Source: a virus. Taken from it: a stretch of DNA of 25,017 nucleotides. The stretch's first letter is position 1, and every line of letters starts with the position of its first letter. The stretch covers positions 1 to 25,017 of the IMG/VR virus record IMGVR_UViG_3300010354_000597; one strand, 5' to 3'. The translations under genes were made by a program, and so were the position numbers. Shown piece by piece: positions 1-16,478 of the stretch. The notes under the pieces were generated by a model. The model did not search any database, was not told the origin of the DNA, and saw only the letters and a program-made list of their open reading frames with translations.

Positions 1-1599
1 GTTCCAACGACGTAATGCTTTGTTGATTCTTGAATCTGGGTCTCTTGCAGTTTTTGCAGAAGTTAGTTTTGATTTCATCCCTTTCATACGACGGCAGAAA
101 TTAGCACGACGCTTTGCTCTTTTTCCGGTTGGTTTCTTTTCGGTTACAGCAGTCTGAAGTTTTGAACCTGGATTTTCACGACGATAAGCATCTACTGCCT
201 TCTGACTTAATCCATCAGTTTTATCTTGACGATTGACTTTTTGCCAGTCTTCTTTTTGTAAATTTGCACTTTTGGATGGTGTAGAGGGAATAACTTTTCC
301 ACCTCCATATTTTGGATTGTCTTTTATTATTTTTCGAAGAAGTTGATCTGGTCCACCATATTCTGTTGCGTCAATACCAATTTGTTCTAGTATCTCTTCC
401 CTCCAATTAGAGAACTGCTCTTTTTTAACACAACGATTATATGTTTTTCCAAATAGTTTTTGAGTTCCTTTTTTCTCATAACCTGGCCAACATTTCTTTG
501 CTGCCTCTTCAACATTGTGCTCACCACTTTCGACATAATCTGCGGCAGTATCAATGTAATCTGCTGCTTTGGTAATTTTAGATTGGACCCAAGCTTCAAT
601 ACTACCTTCACCTTTCATTTTTTTCTTCAGTCTTTTTGCTGCTGAAATTATAGTAGAGAGTTCAGAACGAGCCATTGAATACTCATGGTCTTTCTCTTCG
701 TTTGCTGGGTGTGGTCTGGTTGAATTATATTTCATTTGATTTACGGTTAACAATGGTGAAGAAGATGTTACTTCTGGTCCAGGATATGGCATTGTTGTTT
801 TGTAATCATTTTTGTTTGTAACTATCTCTGCAGGTAAAGAATACATATCCCAATATTTTGGTCCATATCTACATTCACTTCTCAATTCAAGTTTTTCACA
901 TTTTGGGCAATATCTATCAGGTCTTTCACGAATTGGAGTATTCCAATCATAACTGAGAGCTGCTGTTGTTTCTTCCGTTTTAGTTCCCCAATTATCAGCG
1001 CCTACCTTGCGACATTTGACGAGTGCTCCTGACGCATATGCACTTGGCCAAACATCGTATCTTGCTTTAACCTTATGGTAGCAGGCATCTTTTGTCCCAC
1101 TACCTTTTCCAGGTTTATCTTTCTTTGCTTCGTTCAGTTCCATTTGTTCCTTAATACCTGGTTCTGCCTTTATGTAATTTGGATCCTTTTTACCTTTTGC
1201 AAAAGTTGCAACATTGGTTGGACTTGCTGCACCAGATTTTGCTTGTTGACTCTTATCTTTTTGTCTTTTGCGGCGAACTGCTGAGCGAATCAGTGCCTCT
1301 CCCTTTTTTCCTTTTTTCTTTAACGCTTTTAATCTTCCACTACTAAAACATTTTGGTGTTTTAGTCTCACCAGGTTCATTTGCACAAGGTGAACCATCTG
1401 CTTGAACCCAACCAGGTTTTCCACCTTTTGATTTTGAACCTTTGAACCAGTGATGGAGAGTGCCTTCACTAAAGGGAGATTTAGATTGAGTCTCTTGTCC
1501 CCTTGACCTTTTTTTGCGAGCAGCACAATGAGCTTTTTGTGAAAACCCTTTTGGGTTGTCACAGTCTATTGATTTTTTATAATCTTTAGACCAACTCAT
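1..1599 (-). CDS. Mosaic Cys/Lys/Arg-rich phage protein, 3' end beyond left edge (DUF5872-like)
   Basis: The minus strand is open without a stop from ATG at 1599-1597 to codon 3-1, giving 533 residues. The protein looks like a chain of short basic modules. Residues 1-33 hold SIDCDNPKGFSQKAHCAARK. Residues 72-131 hold CANEPGETKTPKC followed by AVRRKRQKDKSQQAKSGA, which resembles DUF5872-type phage proteins. Residues 171-206 hold DACYHKVKARY...YASGALVKCRKVG. Residues 231-243 hold a CPKC...C cluster that could bind zinc. Residues 300-360 are a helical stretch with EAWVQSKITKAADYIDTAAD. Residues 370-391 hold KCWPGYEKK...NRCVKK. The last module, about 450-533, ends KALRRWN at the edge. It starts 12 nt after gp16 with no clear Shine-Dalgarno. 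Function is unknown. The Lys/Arg content suggests nucleic-acid or capsid contact, which is inference. The ORF is certain; the family name is from memory. Confidence 0.85.
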   Translation of the reverse strand, partial: MSWSKDYKKSIDCDNPKGFSQKAHCAARKKRSRGQETQSKSPFSEGTLHHWFKGSKSKGGKPGWVQADGSPCANEPGETKTPKCFSSGRLKALKKKGKKGEALIRSAVRRKRQKDKSQQAKSGAASPTNVATFAKGKKDPNYIKAEPGIKEQMELNEAKKDKPGKGSGTKDACYHKVKARYDVWPSAYASGALVKCRKVGADNWGTKTEETTAALSYDWNTPIRERPDRYCPKCEKLELRSECRYGPKYWDMYSLPAEIVTNKNDYKTTMPYPGPEVTSSSPLLTVNQMKYNSTRPHPANEEKDHEYSMARSELSTIISAAKRLKKKMKGEGSIEAWVQSKITKAADYIDTAADYVESGEHNVEEAAKKCWPGYEKKGTQKLFGKTYNRCVKKEQFSNWREEILEQIGIDATEYGGPDQLLRKIIKDNPKYGGGKVIPSTPSKSANLQKEDWQKVNRQDKTDGLSQKAVDAYRRENPGSKLQTAVTEKKPTGKRAKRRANFCRRMKGMKSKLTSAKTARDPDSRINKALRRWN

Positions 1600-1611
1600 C
1601 TATACAAAAAC

Positions 1612-2025
1612 CTACTCTTTATTATTTAGAAAACCTTGTTTGAGTAGTTTAGAAAGTTCTGACGTAGAACCAACAAAAACTGCATTATTGGTCACATTAT
1701 TAGTTGTTTTAACAGACTCTTCCTCTACGTCTTTTAATTTTTTTTGCAAATCTATCAGTTTATCAGTTACATCACCAACACTTTTAATTAATTGACCTGC
1801 AACTTCATACGCTCTTGGACTTCCACCCTCTCCAGCGAGTTCCATAATTCCGTTAATTGCTTCCTGACCTTTTTCAATTAAAGAATAAAGATTTGCTCGT
1901 GTATATTCATAATCTTTTTTGATATCATTTCCTTTTGAGATGATCTCAATATCATTATTTTTTTCAACATTTACTATTTCACTTTCAATATTTAATGCTT
2001 TATCGATACTACTGTAATCAGACAT
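1612..2025 (-). CDS. gp16: Small terminase subunit, T4 gp16-like
   Basis: 137 residues, somewhat shorter than T4 gp16 (164 aa). In T4 the small subunit forms a ring that recognises concatemeric DNA and stimulates the gp17 motor. The protein looks mostly helical: an acidic N-terminus, a central helix around YTRANLYSLIEKGQEAINGI, the segment GSPRAYEVAGQLIKSV, then a charged coiled-coil stretch LIDLQKKLKDVEEE near residues 92-103. The tail ends with FVGSTSELSKLLKQGF. The central and coiled-coil parts fit marine T4-like gp16 proteins. It starts 11 nt after gp15, and AGGTAA about 5 nt upstream is a modest ribosome site. The call rests mainly on the overall pattern and on its place directly after gp15. 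Gp17 is not in the window. Confidence 0.82.
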   Translation of the reverse strand: MSDYSSIDKALNIESEIVNVEKNNDIEIISKGNDIKKDYEYTRANLYSLIEKGQEAINGIMELAGEGGSPRAYEVAGQLIKSVGDVTDKLIDLQKKLKDVEEESVKTTNNVTNNAVFVGSTSELSKLLKQGFLNNKE

Positions 2026-2036
2026 AAAATTACCTA

Positions 2037-3086
2037 TTAAAAATCAATTTTGCGTGTTGGACTGTACTCTTTAGAATCTCCTAGATAAGTCCAACTTTCG
2101 TTGAATCCAAAATCATCATCTGCTTCAACTAATTGATCATCTGCAGCAGTCAACTTATCAATACTACTATTTACTAGATGTTCAATTATTGTAGTATTTT
2201 CATAACCACGTTCAACATACAACTGAGTTGCATTTGGTTTATCTTTCACATACATTATTTCATTACCAATGATAATTCTATCACCTATACTAAAATCAGC
2301 ACTGCTAACAACAGGAATCAGGACATCGCTGGTAGAAATACCATCTGTTAGCACAGATGTATTATCGTTACTATAATCCCTCTTAGCCCTAGGAGTTACA
2401 ATGTATCTCATTTCACGTCTAGAAGTATTAACAGTATCTCCAGTATATGTATCGACTTGAACTTTTTTGATAAGACCCTCTGAGCTTTCTGCAATAGGTC
2501 CAAAAAGATATGTTTTTGCGTTAAATCTTAAAGTATAGATTAAAACTCTTCTTGTAGAAAAATCTCCTTCATAATCGTCTTGAAAATTAATACTTTCTAA
2601 AACAATTGGTATATCTCTTTTTTCACCAATTGAATCTATGAGATTAATTGTGATGTTGAATGCTGGTTGGAAATATGGTAGAATTTGTTCAATTATTTGA
2701 AGTCCGTCATCATTTAATTTTACCATAATATTTAAATCAAACCCAATATTATATGGCACTGGCATAAAAACCTTTTTAAGATTTGTGCCATTCGAAGCTT
2801 TAAACGTTTGTGTTAAACTTGCTTTTCTTGTTGCATCATATTGTATTGATGTCATTTCAAATGACATTCTAGGTAAAGTTATTTGAACAGGTTTGTTTAA
2901 TTCTGGTTGTTGCCTAATTCTTGCAAGAAATTTTTGAACGGGACCATAAGCAAGAGGAACTCTCATATCACTGATAACTGTAGTATCATCAGAATCTTGA
3001 TGCCTGATGTTTATCTGATTAAATAACGTTCCAAAACCAATAATGGTTTTTCTAATAATCTCGTGATAGTAATAAGTCCCTAACAT
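2037..3086 (-). CDS. gp15: Tail sheath stabiliser and completion protein, T4 gp15-like
   Basis: 349 residues against 272 in T4. T4 gp15 forms the hexameric ring at the top of the tail that caps tube and sheath and docks to the gp13/gp14 neck. The N-terminus MLGTYYYHEIIRK matches marine gp15. The strongest match to T4 is LQIIEQILPYFQPAFNITIN (residues 129-148; T4 has QIVEQILPYFQPHFNTTM). MRVPLAYGP and KRDIPIVLESI align with the T4 segments IRVPITYAS and KRDIKIVLMSA, and FSTRRVLIYTLRFNAKTYLF is the expected beta segment. The extra length is C-terminal: residues about 262-310 carry a small module (IGDRIIIGNEIMYV, then VERGYENTTIIEH) that recurs in other proteins of this window. The start ATG overlaps the gp14 stop (TAATG), implying translational coupling. 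Confidence 0.95.
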   Translation of the reverse strand: MLGTYYYHEIIRKTIIGFGTLFNQINIRHQDSDDTTVISDMRVPLAYGPVQKFLARIRQQPELNKPVQITLPRMSFEMTSIQYDATRKASLTQTFKASNGTNLKKVFMPVPYNIGFDLNIMVKLNDDGLQIIEQILPYFQPAFNITINLIDSIGEKRDIPIVLESINFQDDYEGDFSTRRVLIYTLRFNAKTYLFGPIAESSEGLIKKVQVDTYTGDTVNTSRREMRYIVTPRAKRDYSNDNTSVLTDGISTSDVLIPVVSSADFSIGDRIIIGNEIMYVKDKPNATQLYVERGYENTTIIEHLVNSSIDKLTAADDQLVEADDDFGFNESWTYLGDSKEYSPTRKIDF

Positions 3087-4525
3087 TAATAAGTACCAAA
3101 TGGATTCGATTCTGAAAAATCTAGAATAAGGTCTGCTTCCTCTTCAATTTCATCATTTTGACTATATTTATCGTAAATATCATTGTCATTATAAGACTTA
3201 ACAGAGAAAGTTGCACCAGATTCTTGACCAATAATAGTTTCTCCTGGATAAAATGTCGGTTGAGTAGAGGAAGCACCAACGAATGAAACTTTTAGAGTTC
3301 CATCATCAGAATCCCAAGATTTAACTCTTGCTCTAAGTTTAGATCTTTCACCGACAATAATTTCATTAAATTGATACGTTCCAATTCCAGATAATGTTTC
3401 TGGATTAGAAATAGTAATTGATGGAGGACTATTGAGATCATATCCAGAACCTGGATCAATTATGAGTATTGAAGAAACCGCACCAGAAGAGTTAATTCTT
3501 GTTTCTGCACGTGCTGTAGAACCAGAACCTATTGGACCAGCGATAGTTATGACTGGATTTGTAGAGTATCCTGTTCCACCTTCATTCACCACGATGCTTA
3601 TAACACCATAACTTTGTGATTCAATCGAACAAGTGGCAGCTGCTCCAGCACCAATTGTAACCGCTGTAGCACCACTACCAACTACATGACTGATAAAACT
3701 AATGGTTGGTTCTGTTCCAGAATATCCAATTCCGGCATTGGAAAATAAAATTCTTTGTACTGATGAAACTCCACCTTTTGTTGTAGTTATTGCAACTGCC
3801 GTTGCATCTGTATGTCCAATACCTGGTGGAGCAGTTCCAATTGCCACTACAGGTGCTGTAGTATAATCATATCCATCATTATTTAAGAAAATTTGTCTTA
3901 CATATCCAGTACGAACAATGGCATTTGCCGTGGCAGTTGAACCTAAACTTACCATTTTAAGTGTAGTAATAAATCCAATTTCCTCAAGTTCCCTATCAAC
4001 TTCTTCAATTCCAGTATCAAGAACTTCATCTTCATATTCAAAGAGTTCACACTTTAATTCATAGACATAAAGTTTTCCTAATTGATAAAAAGGTTGTTCA
4101 TGCTCTACAAATTTTACTTCAAATAATCTTTGACCAAGTGGAAAATAAATTAAGTCCCCTTCTCTTGGTCTAGATGACAATTCAATTTCATCAGTATCAC
4201 TACCCATCAAAAATGGAGATATAAAGTCTTCAAATCTTTCTTTTGATATTGTAATTAATAATTCATCTCTTAAACTCATGCCAAATTTGGTAAGGATATC
4301 TCCTGCTCCCCCGTAACCATCATAAGTATTGATATATGCTTCTATGGCATAATTATCATCAAATCTTGATGATTGTATTTCCTGTATGACAGTTTTTTTA
4401 TTGACAAATTTTCTTGGAATGTAGATTACATCGACACCATACATTCTCAACTGCTCGTTAATCAAAGATTGAACGAGTCTCTGTTCTGAAGAAGAACCTT
4501 GTAAGAAAAAGGGATTAAGAGCCAT
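3086..4525 (-). CDS. gp14: Neck protein, T4 gp14-like, with inserted repeat region
   Basis: 479 residues against 256 in T4. In T4, gp13 and gp14 close the filled head and form the tail-docking surface. The N-terminal 165 residues match T4 gp14 closely: MYGVDVIYIPRKFV, AYINTYDGYGG, FGMSLRDELLITI, and PREGDLIYFPLGQRLFEV followed by QPFYQLGK. The C-terminus SESNPFGTY resembles T4 SSPFDNDFMD. Residues about 195-375 are an insertion absent from T4. It has about four beta repeats with a GxGY-x-x-x-P core (DGYDYTTAPVV, GIGYSGTEPTI, GTGYSTNPVITI, GSGYDLNSPPSITI). A further module at 389-446 includes GETIIGQESGATFSV. The ATG overlaps the gp13 stop and the gene's own stop overlaps the gp15 ATG. No Shine-Dalgarno is visible, so coupling is likely. 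Confidence 0.95.
   Translation of the reverse strand: MALNPFFLQGSSSEQRLVQSLINEQLRMYGVDVIYIPRKFVNKKTVIQEIQSSRFDDNYAIEAYINTYDGYGGAGDILTKFGMSLRDELLITISKERFEDFISPFLMGSDTDEIELSSRPREGDLIYFPLGQRLFEVKFVEHEQPFYQLGKLYVYELKCELFEYEDEVLDTGIEEVDRELEEIGFITTLKMVSLGSTATANAIVRTGYVRQIFLNNDGYDYTTAPVVAIGTAPPGIGHTDATAVAITTTKGGVSSVQRILFSNAGIGYSGTEPTISFISHVVGSGATAVTIGAGAAATCSIESQSYGVISIVVNEGGTGYSTNPVITIAGPIGSGSTARAETRINSSGAVSSILIIDPGSGYDLNSPPSITISNPETLSGIGTYQFNEIIVGERSKLRARVKSWDSDDGTLKVSFVGASSTQPTFYPGETIIGQESGATFSVKSYNDNDIYDKYSQNDEIEEEADLILDFSESNPFGTY
3188..3361 (-). repeat. SGAxAxV hairpin module in gp14
   Basis: Encodes gp14 residues 389-446, with IVGERSKLRARVKSWDSD and GETIIGQESGATFSVKSYND. The same pattern, G-x-x-I/L-x-G-x-x-S-G-A/V-x-A-x-V, recurs in the DUF4815-type protein (GTKLVGKTSGAVATVSN), in the giant protein (GDTLKGKKSGVIATVSD) and more weakly in gp8. 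It is a protein-level repeat, not a nucleotide-identical one. Confidence 0.6.
3404..3943 (-). repeat. GxGY beta-repeat array inserted in gp14
   Basis: Encodes gp14 residues about 195-374. Roughly four degenerate units of 35-45 residues alternate a Gly/Ala/Thr-rich strand (GATAVTI, GSTARAE), a G-V-x-S-I/V strand and a GxGY-x-x-x-P-x-I turn. The array lies between the two ends that align with T4 gp14. Similar units occur in gp8, the DUF4815-type protein and the giant protein. Confidence 0.7.
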
Positions 4526-14924: not shown

Positions 14925-16478
14925 TTAGAATTCCAGTATGATTTTAATATCTTCTTTTTGGCGACTATTTCTACTAATTATTGGTCGGTTGTCCAAGTAA
15001 ATTATATCGCCTGACCCTTTATTTATCTCAGGAGAAGCAAGACCAGAAGTGAAATTGACGCCTAGATTGATTACCTTATTTCCGGTTGGATTTGTACTTA
15101 TACCAGTAAAATTAGTGTCAATTGATGCACTAAACCCACTTGGAGAAGCGGTAATTTGAGTTGCAGATGATTCAAAATCTAAAACTTTTGAAGAAGTTGA
15201 AACTCCAATATAATCTTTTTGATCTAGAGTAGTTTGGTTAAAATATAGTGAACGATCTTGAACATATTTCATAATCTTGGTTTCACTATCATATGACGAT
15301 ACCCATCCATATGCAATTCCACCGGTGACTGCTTGTTGAATTTTATCACCAACTGCTGGAGTTCCAGAAGTGGATGAAAATTTTAAAGCATATGTGGAAG
15401 AATATTGACTTCCAGCAAATATTGTCGTGGAACCTATGGAAGTTGGATTTTTAACAACCCCAACTTGAGCAAATTTAGTGTCTGTTGGAAAATCCCTGGT
15501 AGAATCATCAAATCTTGCATAAACTAAAACCTTATCAGCACCAAGTTCTTTGTAAATATCAAATCCATGACCTTTGGAAGGTGGTATAATTGGAATTAAC
15601 TTTGCAAAATCTGAGGAAGAATTAGAGTTTATAGAACCCAAATCTACCATCCCATAAGTATAATCTTTACCTCCAGAGGAAACTGTAGCGTTGGTAATTT
15701 TGCCATTAACTACATCAATAAGAACTTTTCCTCCAGTTCCATCACCCAAAATATTTACTTCTTGACCTACACCATTTGAGTAATTTGAACCTTGTCTTTC
15801 AATATAAACTTTTTTAATTTGATTTTCATTTATTGATGAATCACCATTTTCTCTTACAGATTGAATTTGAGGATCTGTAGATGTATCCCAATCTCCGGGC
15901 AAAGTAATATATTCTGTAGAATCAAATTTTACAATGTCACTTGGATTGACGGTATACAAATACTTCCATACATAACCATCTCCACTATCTCCTGCTTTTG
16001 ATGGTTCCAAATCGGTAAAAGTTGGTTCATCTTGAGAAGCATTTCCTGAAGTGTTAATTCCGGAAGAACCATTATCAATACAAATATAAACTTTATATTG
16101 ACTATTCATAACATAATAATTTGCATCATACAATCTTGAAGATGCAGTTAAAGGTGATGGTGAAGTTAATGAATAATCATGTCTATACATTTCATATTTT
16201 GTACCTCTTGCCCAGTCTATTCTACGAATAATTCTACGAACAGTTGAGGAAGATATTTTCTTACCATATAAAGATACATCACCCGTGTGTGACAGATACG
16301 TAAAATTATCAGTTGGGTTCGGAACAGTGGTATTCCAGTTAGAAGTTCTACCAAATCCTACCTGAGAAGCATTGGGTAGTCCAACAAACACATAGTATGA
16401 ATTAGAGGTGTTCTCAACAGATTCAACAAAATTTTCAGCATTTAGTATTCTAAACTGATCTGTTACAATTGAGGACAT
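14925..16478 (-). CDS. gp8: Baseplate wedge protein, T4 gp8-like
   Basis: 517 residues against 334 in T4. T4 gp8 is a dimer that binds gp7 and gp10 in the baseplate wedge. Matches to T4 include the N-terminal IVTDQFRI (T4 IVTSKFRT), YVFVG with GRTSNW (T4 FITFGRSEPW), IIRRIDW (T4 VIPRRDW), YICIDN, GDGYVWKYLYTVNPSD (T4 GDGYVWEYLFEIPPD), EYITLPGDW, and the end GDIIYLDNRPIISRNSR...EDIKIILEF (T4 GEMIYMENRPPIIMAMD...EEINILFTF). The additional length includes a GxGY-type unit at residues 222-280 and a weaker SGA-type unit near 376-412. There is no Shine-Dalgarno before the ATG. A late promoter lies just upstream in the 29-bp gap after the giant gene. Confidence 0.95.
   Translation of the reverse strand: MSSIVTDQFRILNAENFVESVENTSNSYYVFVGLPNASQVGFGRTSNWNTTVPNPTDNFTYLSHTGDVSLYGKKISSSTVRRIIRRIDWARGTKYEMYRHDYSLTSPSPLTASSRLYDANYYVMNSQYKVYICIDNGSSGINTSGNASQDEPTFTDLEPSKAGDSGDGYVWKYLYTVNPSDIVKFDSTEYITLPGDWDTSTDPQIQSVRENGDSSINENQIKKVYIERQGSNYSNGVGQEVNILGDGTGGKVLIDVVNGKITNATVSSGGKDYTYGMVDLGSINSNSSSDFAKLIPIIPPSKGHGFDIYKELGADKVLVYARFDDSTRDFPTDTKFAQVGVVKNPTSIGSTTIFAGSQYSSTYALKFSSTSGTPAVGDKIQQAVTGGIAYGWVSSYDSETKIMKYVQDRSLYFNQTTLDQKDYIGVSTSSKVLDFESSATQITASPSGFSASIDTNFTGISTNPTGNKVINLGVNFTSGLASPEINKGSGDIIYLDNRPIISRNSRQKEDIKIILEF

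Follow-up and report, generated by a model that had tools for sequence, protein, structure and literature searches.

A mosaic, cysteine-bearing basic protein encoded after gp16 in T4-like cyanophages is assembled from reshuffled modules that also occur as separate genes

Results

The stretch of DNA that was analysed, referred to here as the window, is a 25,017-base IMG/VR virus fragment whose minus-strand genes follow a T4-like order, running through gp8 (14925-16478), gp13, gp14, gp15 and gp16 to an open reading frame (ORF) of 533 amino acids (Table 1). The ORF begins with an ATG at 1599-1597 and continues to position 1 without a stop codon, in agreement with a preliminary description that had reported a 533-codon frame running off the left edge. 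Because full-length relatives terminate in ..ALRRWNCN-stop, no more than about two residues plus the stop codon are missing from it, and it is essentially complete. The gp17 gene of this phage lies beyond the window edge, and its position was read in relatives. The window gp14 (3086-4525) carries a long C-terminal extension whose repeats resemble those of structural and baseplate proteins (phrog_701, phrog_708).

Table 1 Features of the 533-amino-acid ORF and its upstream neighbor
Feature	Residues	Coordinates	Strand	Remarks
gp16, terminase small subunit		1612..2025	-	Directly upstream of the ORF; phrog_445, E 4e-53
T4-GC119/phrog_727 family protein		1..1599	-	533 aa, open at left edge
M1	1-34	1498..1599	-	WSKxYKKSIDCDNPKGFSQKAHC
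M2	43-116	1252..1473	-	LHxWF..GWV..PC..PKC.SS
M3	145-208	976..1167	-	ACYHKVKxRYxVWPSAYASGALVKCRKxGAxNWG
M4	224-262	814..930	-	RYCPKCxKxExRxECKYGPKYWDMFS
M5	299-363	511..705	-	MARSELS..AWVQSKITKAADY; two predicted helices
M6	366-394	418..504	-	CWxGY..NxCVKK
Linker peptide SNWREEIL		388..417	-	Recurrent, follows M6
M7 = DUF6321 (PF19846)	449-533	1..255	-	C-terminal; all-helical prediction, confident

In composition the ORF is Lys/Arg-rich and Cys-bearing and unlike its neighbors, as had been noted previously. Lys and Arg make up 21.2 % of its residues, the net charge is +50, and there are 12 Cys (2.25 %), whereas net charges of 0 to -64 make the other window ORFs checked neutral to acidic, and they mostly have ≤0.7 % Cys; the exception is a 68-aa ORF in which a single Cys amounts to 1.5 %.

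The ORF is a member of a catalogued, uncharacterized cyanophage family known as T4-GC119 or phrog_727, with DUF6321 at its C-terminus. DUF6321 was the only Pfam domain found (residues 458-532, E 1e-13, 52.1 bits against a cut-off of 28.5), and PHROG searches returned phrog_727 (E 1.3e-87, over three stretches) together with phrog_3477, both of them families without a function. Relatives comprised 332 IMG/VR matches and 512 phage records, nearly all cyanophages, and this conservation excludes a chance origin of the ORF. Thus, the mosaic ORF of the preliminary description is real, but it is not a one-off. In annotated cyanophage genomes its relatives bear the label 'T4-LIKE GC: 119', are listed as hypothetical and lie between gp16 and gp17. 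The family gene was preceded directly by gp16 in 69 of 69 related loci, and gp17 followed in 28 of the 29 loci with enough flank, at a distance of 13-3446 nt. The proposed interruption of the gp16-gp17 order is therefore upheld, with gp16 adjoining the ORF in the window and gp17 on the expected side in relatives. The gp16-gp17 interval is a known insertion/recombination hot spot, and T4-GC119 has been assigned to a mobile cassette for carbon metabolism (zwf/gnd/petE/PTOX; PMC3037559).

Some relatives carry the labels 'RecA-like' or 'major head protein', which look like transferred annotation and were set aside. Among them, Greip gp45 (L157:3876-4127), an 83-aa DUF6321 protein, is annotated as 'RecA-like recombination protein', apparently through a label-transfer error from 'gp114'. 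A DUF6321 gene was also found beside gp17 on a 188-kb contig (L161) of a Nonlabens xiamenensis assembly that also encodes a T4 gp23 homologue at some point; this contig is probably a T4-like phage sequenced along with the Nonlabens strain.

Seven short modules (M1-M7) were defined from pairwise conservation and iterated profiles. Every motif quoted for the modules proposed earlier, at least five or six in number, was located in the ORF; the Cys motif of M4 (RYCPKC..EC..WDMYS) had not been listed. Among 73 distinct relatives, the Cys of M2, M3, M4 and M7 are kept in ~90 % or more and those of M6 in ~75 %, giving module-core Cys conservation of about 75-97 % outside M1; pairwise alignments covered M1 in only about half of these relatives. 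Only three Cys are conserved in M4 (a CxxC plus one) and two in each of the remaining Cys modules, against the four Cys/His ligands of a zinc-ribbon site. These paired Cys may stabilize each module through a disulfide or a bound metal, and a Zn_ribbon_3 match was obtained in the S-T4 relative at E 0.034 only. In a DUF6321 variant (L082:7001-8830 and L196), a CSKTPDKPIC-type segment with two extra Cys replaces SAKTARDPNSRI. The linkers between modules are highly variable, and SNWR-type peptides frequently stand immediately ahead of DUF6321. In other phages, M5 turned up in unrelated genes as well.

The modules were found in 30 arrangements among 127 fused relatives (a count of loci, including some near-duplicates), and DUF6321 was last in 125 of the 127. 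Clear permutations were seen in S-T4 (M2-M5-M3-M6-M4-beta-M7), S-CAM9 (beta-M1-M5-M2-M3-M6-M7), DSL-LC02 (M2-M1-M3-M5-M6-M7) and S-SM2. S-SM2 and Bellamy encode M1 in an upstream ORF of its own, and in both of them DUF192 is spliced in as a guest domain; S-SRM01 and DSL-LC02 carry DUF5661. These order changes rule out one continuous domain in a fixed order and bear out the earlier reading of the gene as a module collector. A cleavable leader ahead of DUF6321 was considered as a general rule and rejected, with FxxF-type peptides in just 5 of 97 distinct fused sequences and SNWR in 39.

The position in a hot spot, the association of T4-GC119 with a mobile cassette (PMC3037559) and the variable linkers could together be read as debris, that is, as fragments accumulated without a selected function of the whole gene. 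We regard this as very improbable because the module cores are tightly conserved. The sampled relatives also keep long, intact reading frames, and, as described below, the same modules form separate genes in unrelated phages and relatives have been detected in virions.

The DUF6321 alignment and all module profiles were scanned against other phages. M1, M2, M3 and M7 were recovered as small, mutually adjacent separate genes in unrelated marine phages, as anticipated by the earlier suggestion that the modules occur alone. In the cultured SAR11 phage (pelagiphage) HTVC027P, gp49 corresponds to M3 (65 aa), gp50 to M2 (87 aa) and gp52 to M7 (92 aa), within a series of small genes with mostly basic products between the large gp43 and the capsid gene gp59; the gp49 match is weak (E 0.0016), yet its sequence reads KFKVYPSAYANMYASG. 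The window M2 has no match to Pfam DUF5872 (PF19197), whereas a standalone protein picked up with the M2 profile at locus L218 matches it at E 1.3e-15 and that of L234 at 0.0011; the L194 protein gave no match. An algal giant virus is also reported to carry DUF5872 (PMC12085832).

In the neighborhoods of these genes, the order is M3-M2-M7-TerL-portal in L194 and portal-M2-M7-..-MCP in L234 and L171, and in the T7-like P-SCSP1g DUF6321 lies between MCP and the adaptor gene gp11. A handful of head-gene queries found a head gene in the fetched stretch of 45 of 95 standalone DUF6321 loci, a lower bound obtained without a gene-clustering control; some standalone genes had no recognized head gene nearby. 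Head-gene density increases away from DUF6321 because tiny genes cluster around it, and hence no statistical test was drawn from density.

Modules were also found in other settings. M2, M3, M5 and M6 occur in other proteins of a second cassette that follows a virion-detected cytidylyltransferase (L096, L099, L094, L303) in HTVC008M, S-H9-1, S-B64 and S-CREM2. The non-cyanophage Flavobacterium phage immuto encodes, near its terminase large subunit, an 841-aa protein with two M5 copies (L095:2393-4918).

Published mass spectrometry (MS) supports particle association of relatives in two phages, S-CREM2 and S-SCSM1, but not in S-SZBM1 or S-SM1. In CsCl-purified S-CREM2 particles, gp137 was detected with 4 unique peptides and gp160 with 7 (PMC10665884 Table 3). 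Of M1-M7, gp137 (108049-109521) has M7 alone, and it is separated from gp16 by one gene and immediately precedes gp17; gp160 has the order M2-M6-M3 and lies about 20 kb from gp137. The MS coverage of gp137 was 4.1 %, and the authors warn that abundant non-virion proteins may co-purify (PMC10665884). S-SCSM1_29 (SSCSM1_29; M2-M3-M6-M4-M7) is labelled 'virion protein', and the S-SCSM1 paper determined virion proteins by MS (PMC9602691). SSZBM1_192, the DUF6321 protein of S-SZBM1, was not seen in the parts of that phage's MS table that were covered (PMC9146016), and the S-SM1 member is labelled hypothetical, not structural, in a phage whose virions were analysed (PMC3037559). Trypsin is unfavorable here, with peptides of 7-35 residues covering ~18 % of the window DUF6321 and about half of the whole protein.

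A full-length AlphaFold model had a pTM of 0.20 and was confident only locally, around M1 and M4, of which M4 was the best-predicted part (pLDDT 83-86); its uncertainty precluded a search for folds or zinc sites. DUF6321 modelled alone from 72 sequences was predicted as five helices with a pLDDT of 90.8. Sequence searches of the PDB with the full protein and with the M2, M3, M4 and M7 profiles gave no credible match, and a fold search of the PDB with the DUF6321 model gave no match and no recognized DNA-binding fold. Significant matches of this model among viral structures were DUF6321 proteins or nameless entries.

Discussion

We hypothesize, with slightly better than even confidence, that the ORF encodes a virion-associated head-region protein resembling beads on a string, built by the fusion and reshuffling of small basic head-block proteins. 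Small basic proteins encoded by separate head-block genes in other marine phages would have been fused in T4-like cyanophages; the direction, fusion rather than fission, is the one that we infer. After fusion the module order would have been reshuffled, with DUF6321 staying as the nearly constant C-terminal module while the beads M1, M2/DUF5872 and M3-M6 and the guests DUF192 and DUF5661 were gained, lost and permuted. The protein would be synthesized late, together with gp16 and gp17, its strongly basic modules would touch DNA or the inside of the head close to the packaging machine, and it would remain in the head with the genome. Its charge, its neighborhood and the virion detection of relatives suggest that it may contact DNA inside the head. 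The preliminary description had guessed at an internal protein or a packaging accessory, and the head-block neighborhoods and virion proteomics lend this support, short of proof.

The second half of that guess would have the protein act with gp16 and gp17, bridging DNA, terminase and portal, so that its presence in particles would be carry-over. The constant place between gp16 and gp17 fits such a role, as does the standalone cassette M3-M2-M7 of L194, which immediately precedes TerL and portal. We nevertheless consider it unlikely, given that the S-CREM2 table of particle proteins includes a DUF6321 protein and neither terminase subunit (PMC10665884), and that the modules of other phages have MCP or portal close by and no recognized terminase gene at their side.

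A similarly low probability is given to a cargo or effector role, in which head-carried modules would be ejected to act on host DNA or metabolism and the shuffling would reflect host-driven selection. It would account for the speed at which modules and guest domains come and go, for the module cassette beside the virion-detected cytidylyltransferase, and for the leaders like those of T4 internal proteins on some genes of that kind and on one DUF6321 protein. However, M1-M7 contain no recognized catalytic motif and nothing indicates ejection, and the strong conservation of the core modules M2, M3 and M7 among phages whose hosts differ widely favors a common structural role.

Particle association could also reflect a neck, portal or capsid-surface component instead of an internal protein. 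The gene lies downstream of the neck genes gp13-gp15 in the window, and both the P-SCSP1g arrangement between MCP and gp11 and the virion detection are compatible with such a component. This appears highly improbable, since the DUF6321, M2, M3 and M4 profiles gave no convincing PDB chain, DUF6321 has no fold match, and the low MS coverage is unlike that of a multi-copy decoration protein.

Beyond the head-region reading that we prefer for this protein, a wider and distinctly more tentative proposal is that several lineages of marine tailed phages draw on one common stock of tiny basic head proteins with paired Cys. T4-like cyanophages would fuse these into one chain, anchored at the C-terminus almost invariably by DUF6321, producing an exchangeable head cargo or a DNA-organizing rod with a phage-specific payload.

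About 500 sequenced marine phages carry the T4-GC119/DUF6321 family, to which no function has been assigned. Its link to head-block genes of pelagiphages and cyanopodoviruses and to measured particle peptides turns a 'hypothetical protein' into a testable virion component. The searchable literature is a partial collection, and within it no publication on DUF6321 was found; by the same measure, module permutation, separate-gene equivalents across lineages and a tie to virion peptides appear not to have been combined before.

Comparison with known systems

The closest known system is T4-GC119 itself (phrog_727/phrog_3477), which shares with the window ORF, one of its members, the place after gp16, the C-terminal DUF6321 and the modules. 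It has been catalogued merely as hypothetical, and neither its modular reshuffling nor the separate-gene equivalents were found described in the searchable literature. Pfam lists DUF6321, equivalent to M7, and DUF5872, matched by standalone M2 relatives, as families without a function.

The T4 internal head proteins (IPI-III) are likewise basic and encoded with late/head genes, but they have no sequence relation to the window protein and are single small proteins, whereas the window protein is multi-module. The start of SSZBM1_192, MKTFKQYITEA, resembles the T4 leader MKTYQEFIAEA. A capsid-targeting leader of this type (MKTYQEFIAE) is absent from the window protein, which begins with MSWSKDYKKSIDC. 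In six genomes, MKxFxxFLxE(A/S) starts close to the T4 leader were present at 10 of 2177 first Met and at 0 of 4552 other Met. Many cyanophage proteins have leader-like starts, including S-CREM2 gp154 (L303:4809-5669) and gp136 (L302:4035-4748), SSZBM1_192 (L309:6629-7126), and products of genes adjoining GC119 in S-CAM9, S-T4 and DSL-LC02; such a leader may be a mark of proteins that are targeted to the capsid and cleaved by gp21.

Families whose members have gained, lost and permuted domains are also known among mosaic phage proteins such as tail fibers, tail spikes, endolysins and DNA polymerases (PMC10684548). The window family differs in being a Cys-rich basic head-region protein built from very short modules for which separate genes exist as well, and it falls outside the four outlier classes named in that study. 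It offers an evident example of fused genes and permuted domains among head-region proteins, beyond the usual tail-fiber/endolysin hot spots.
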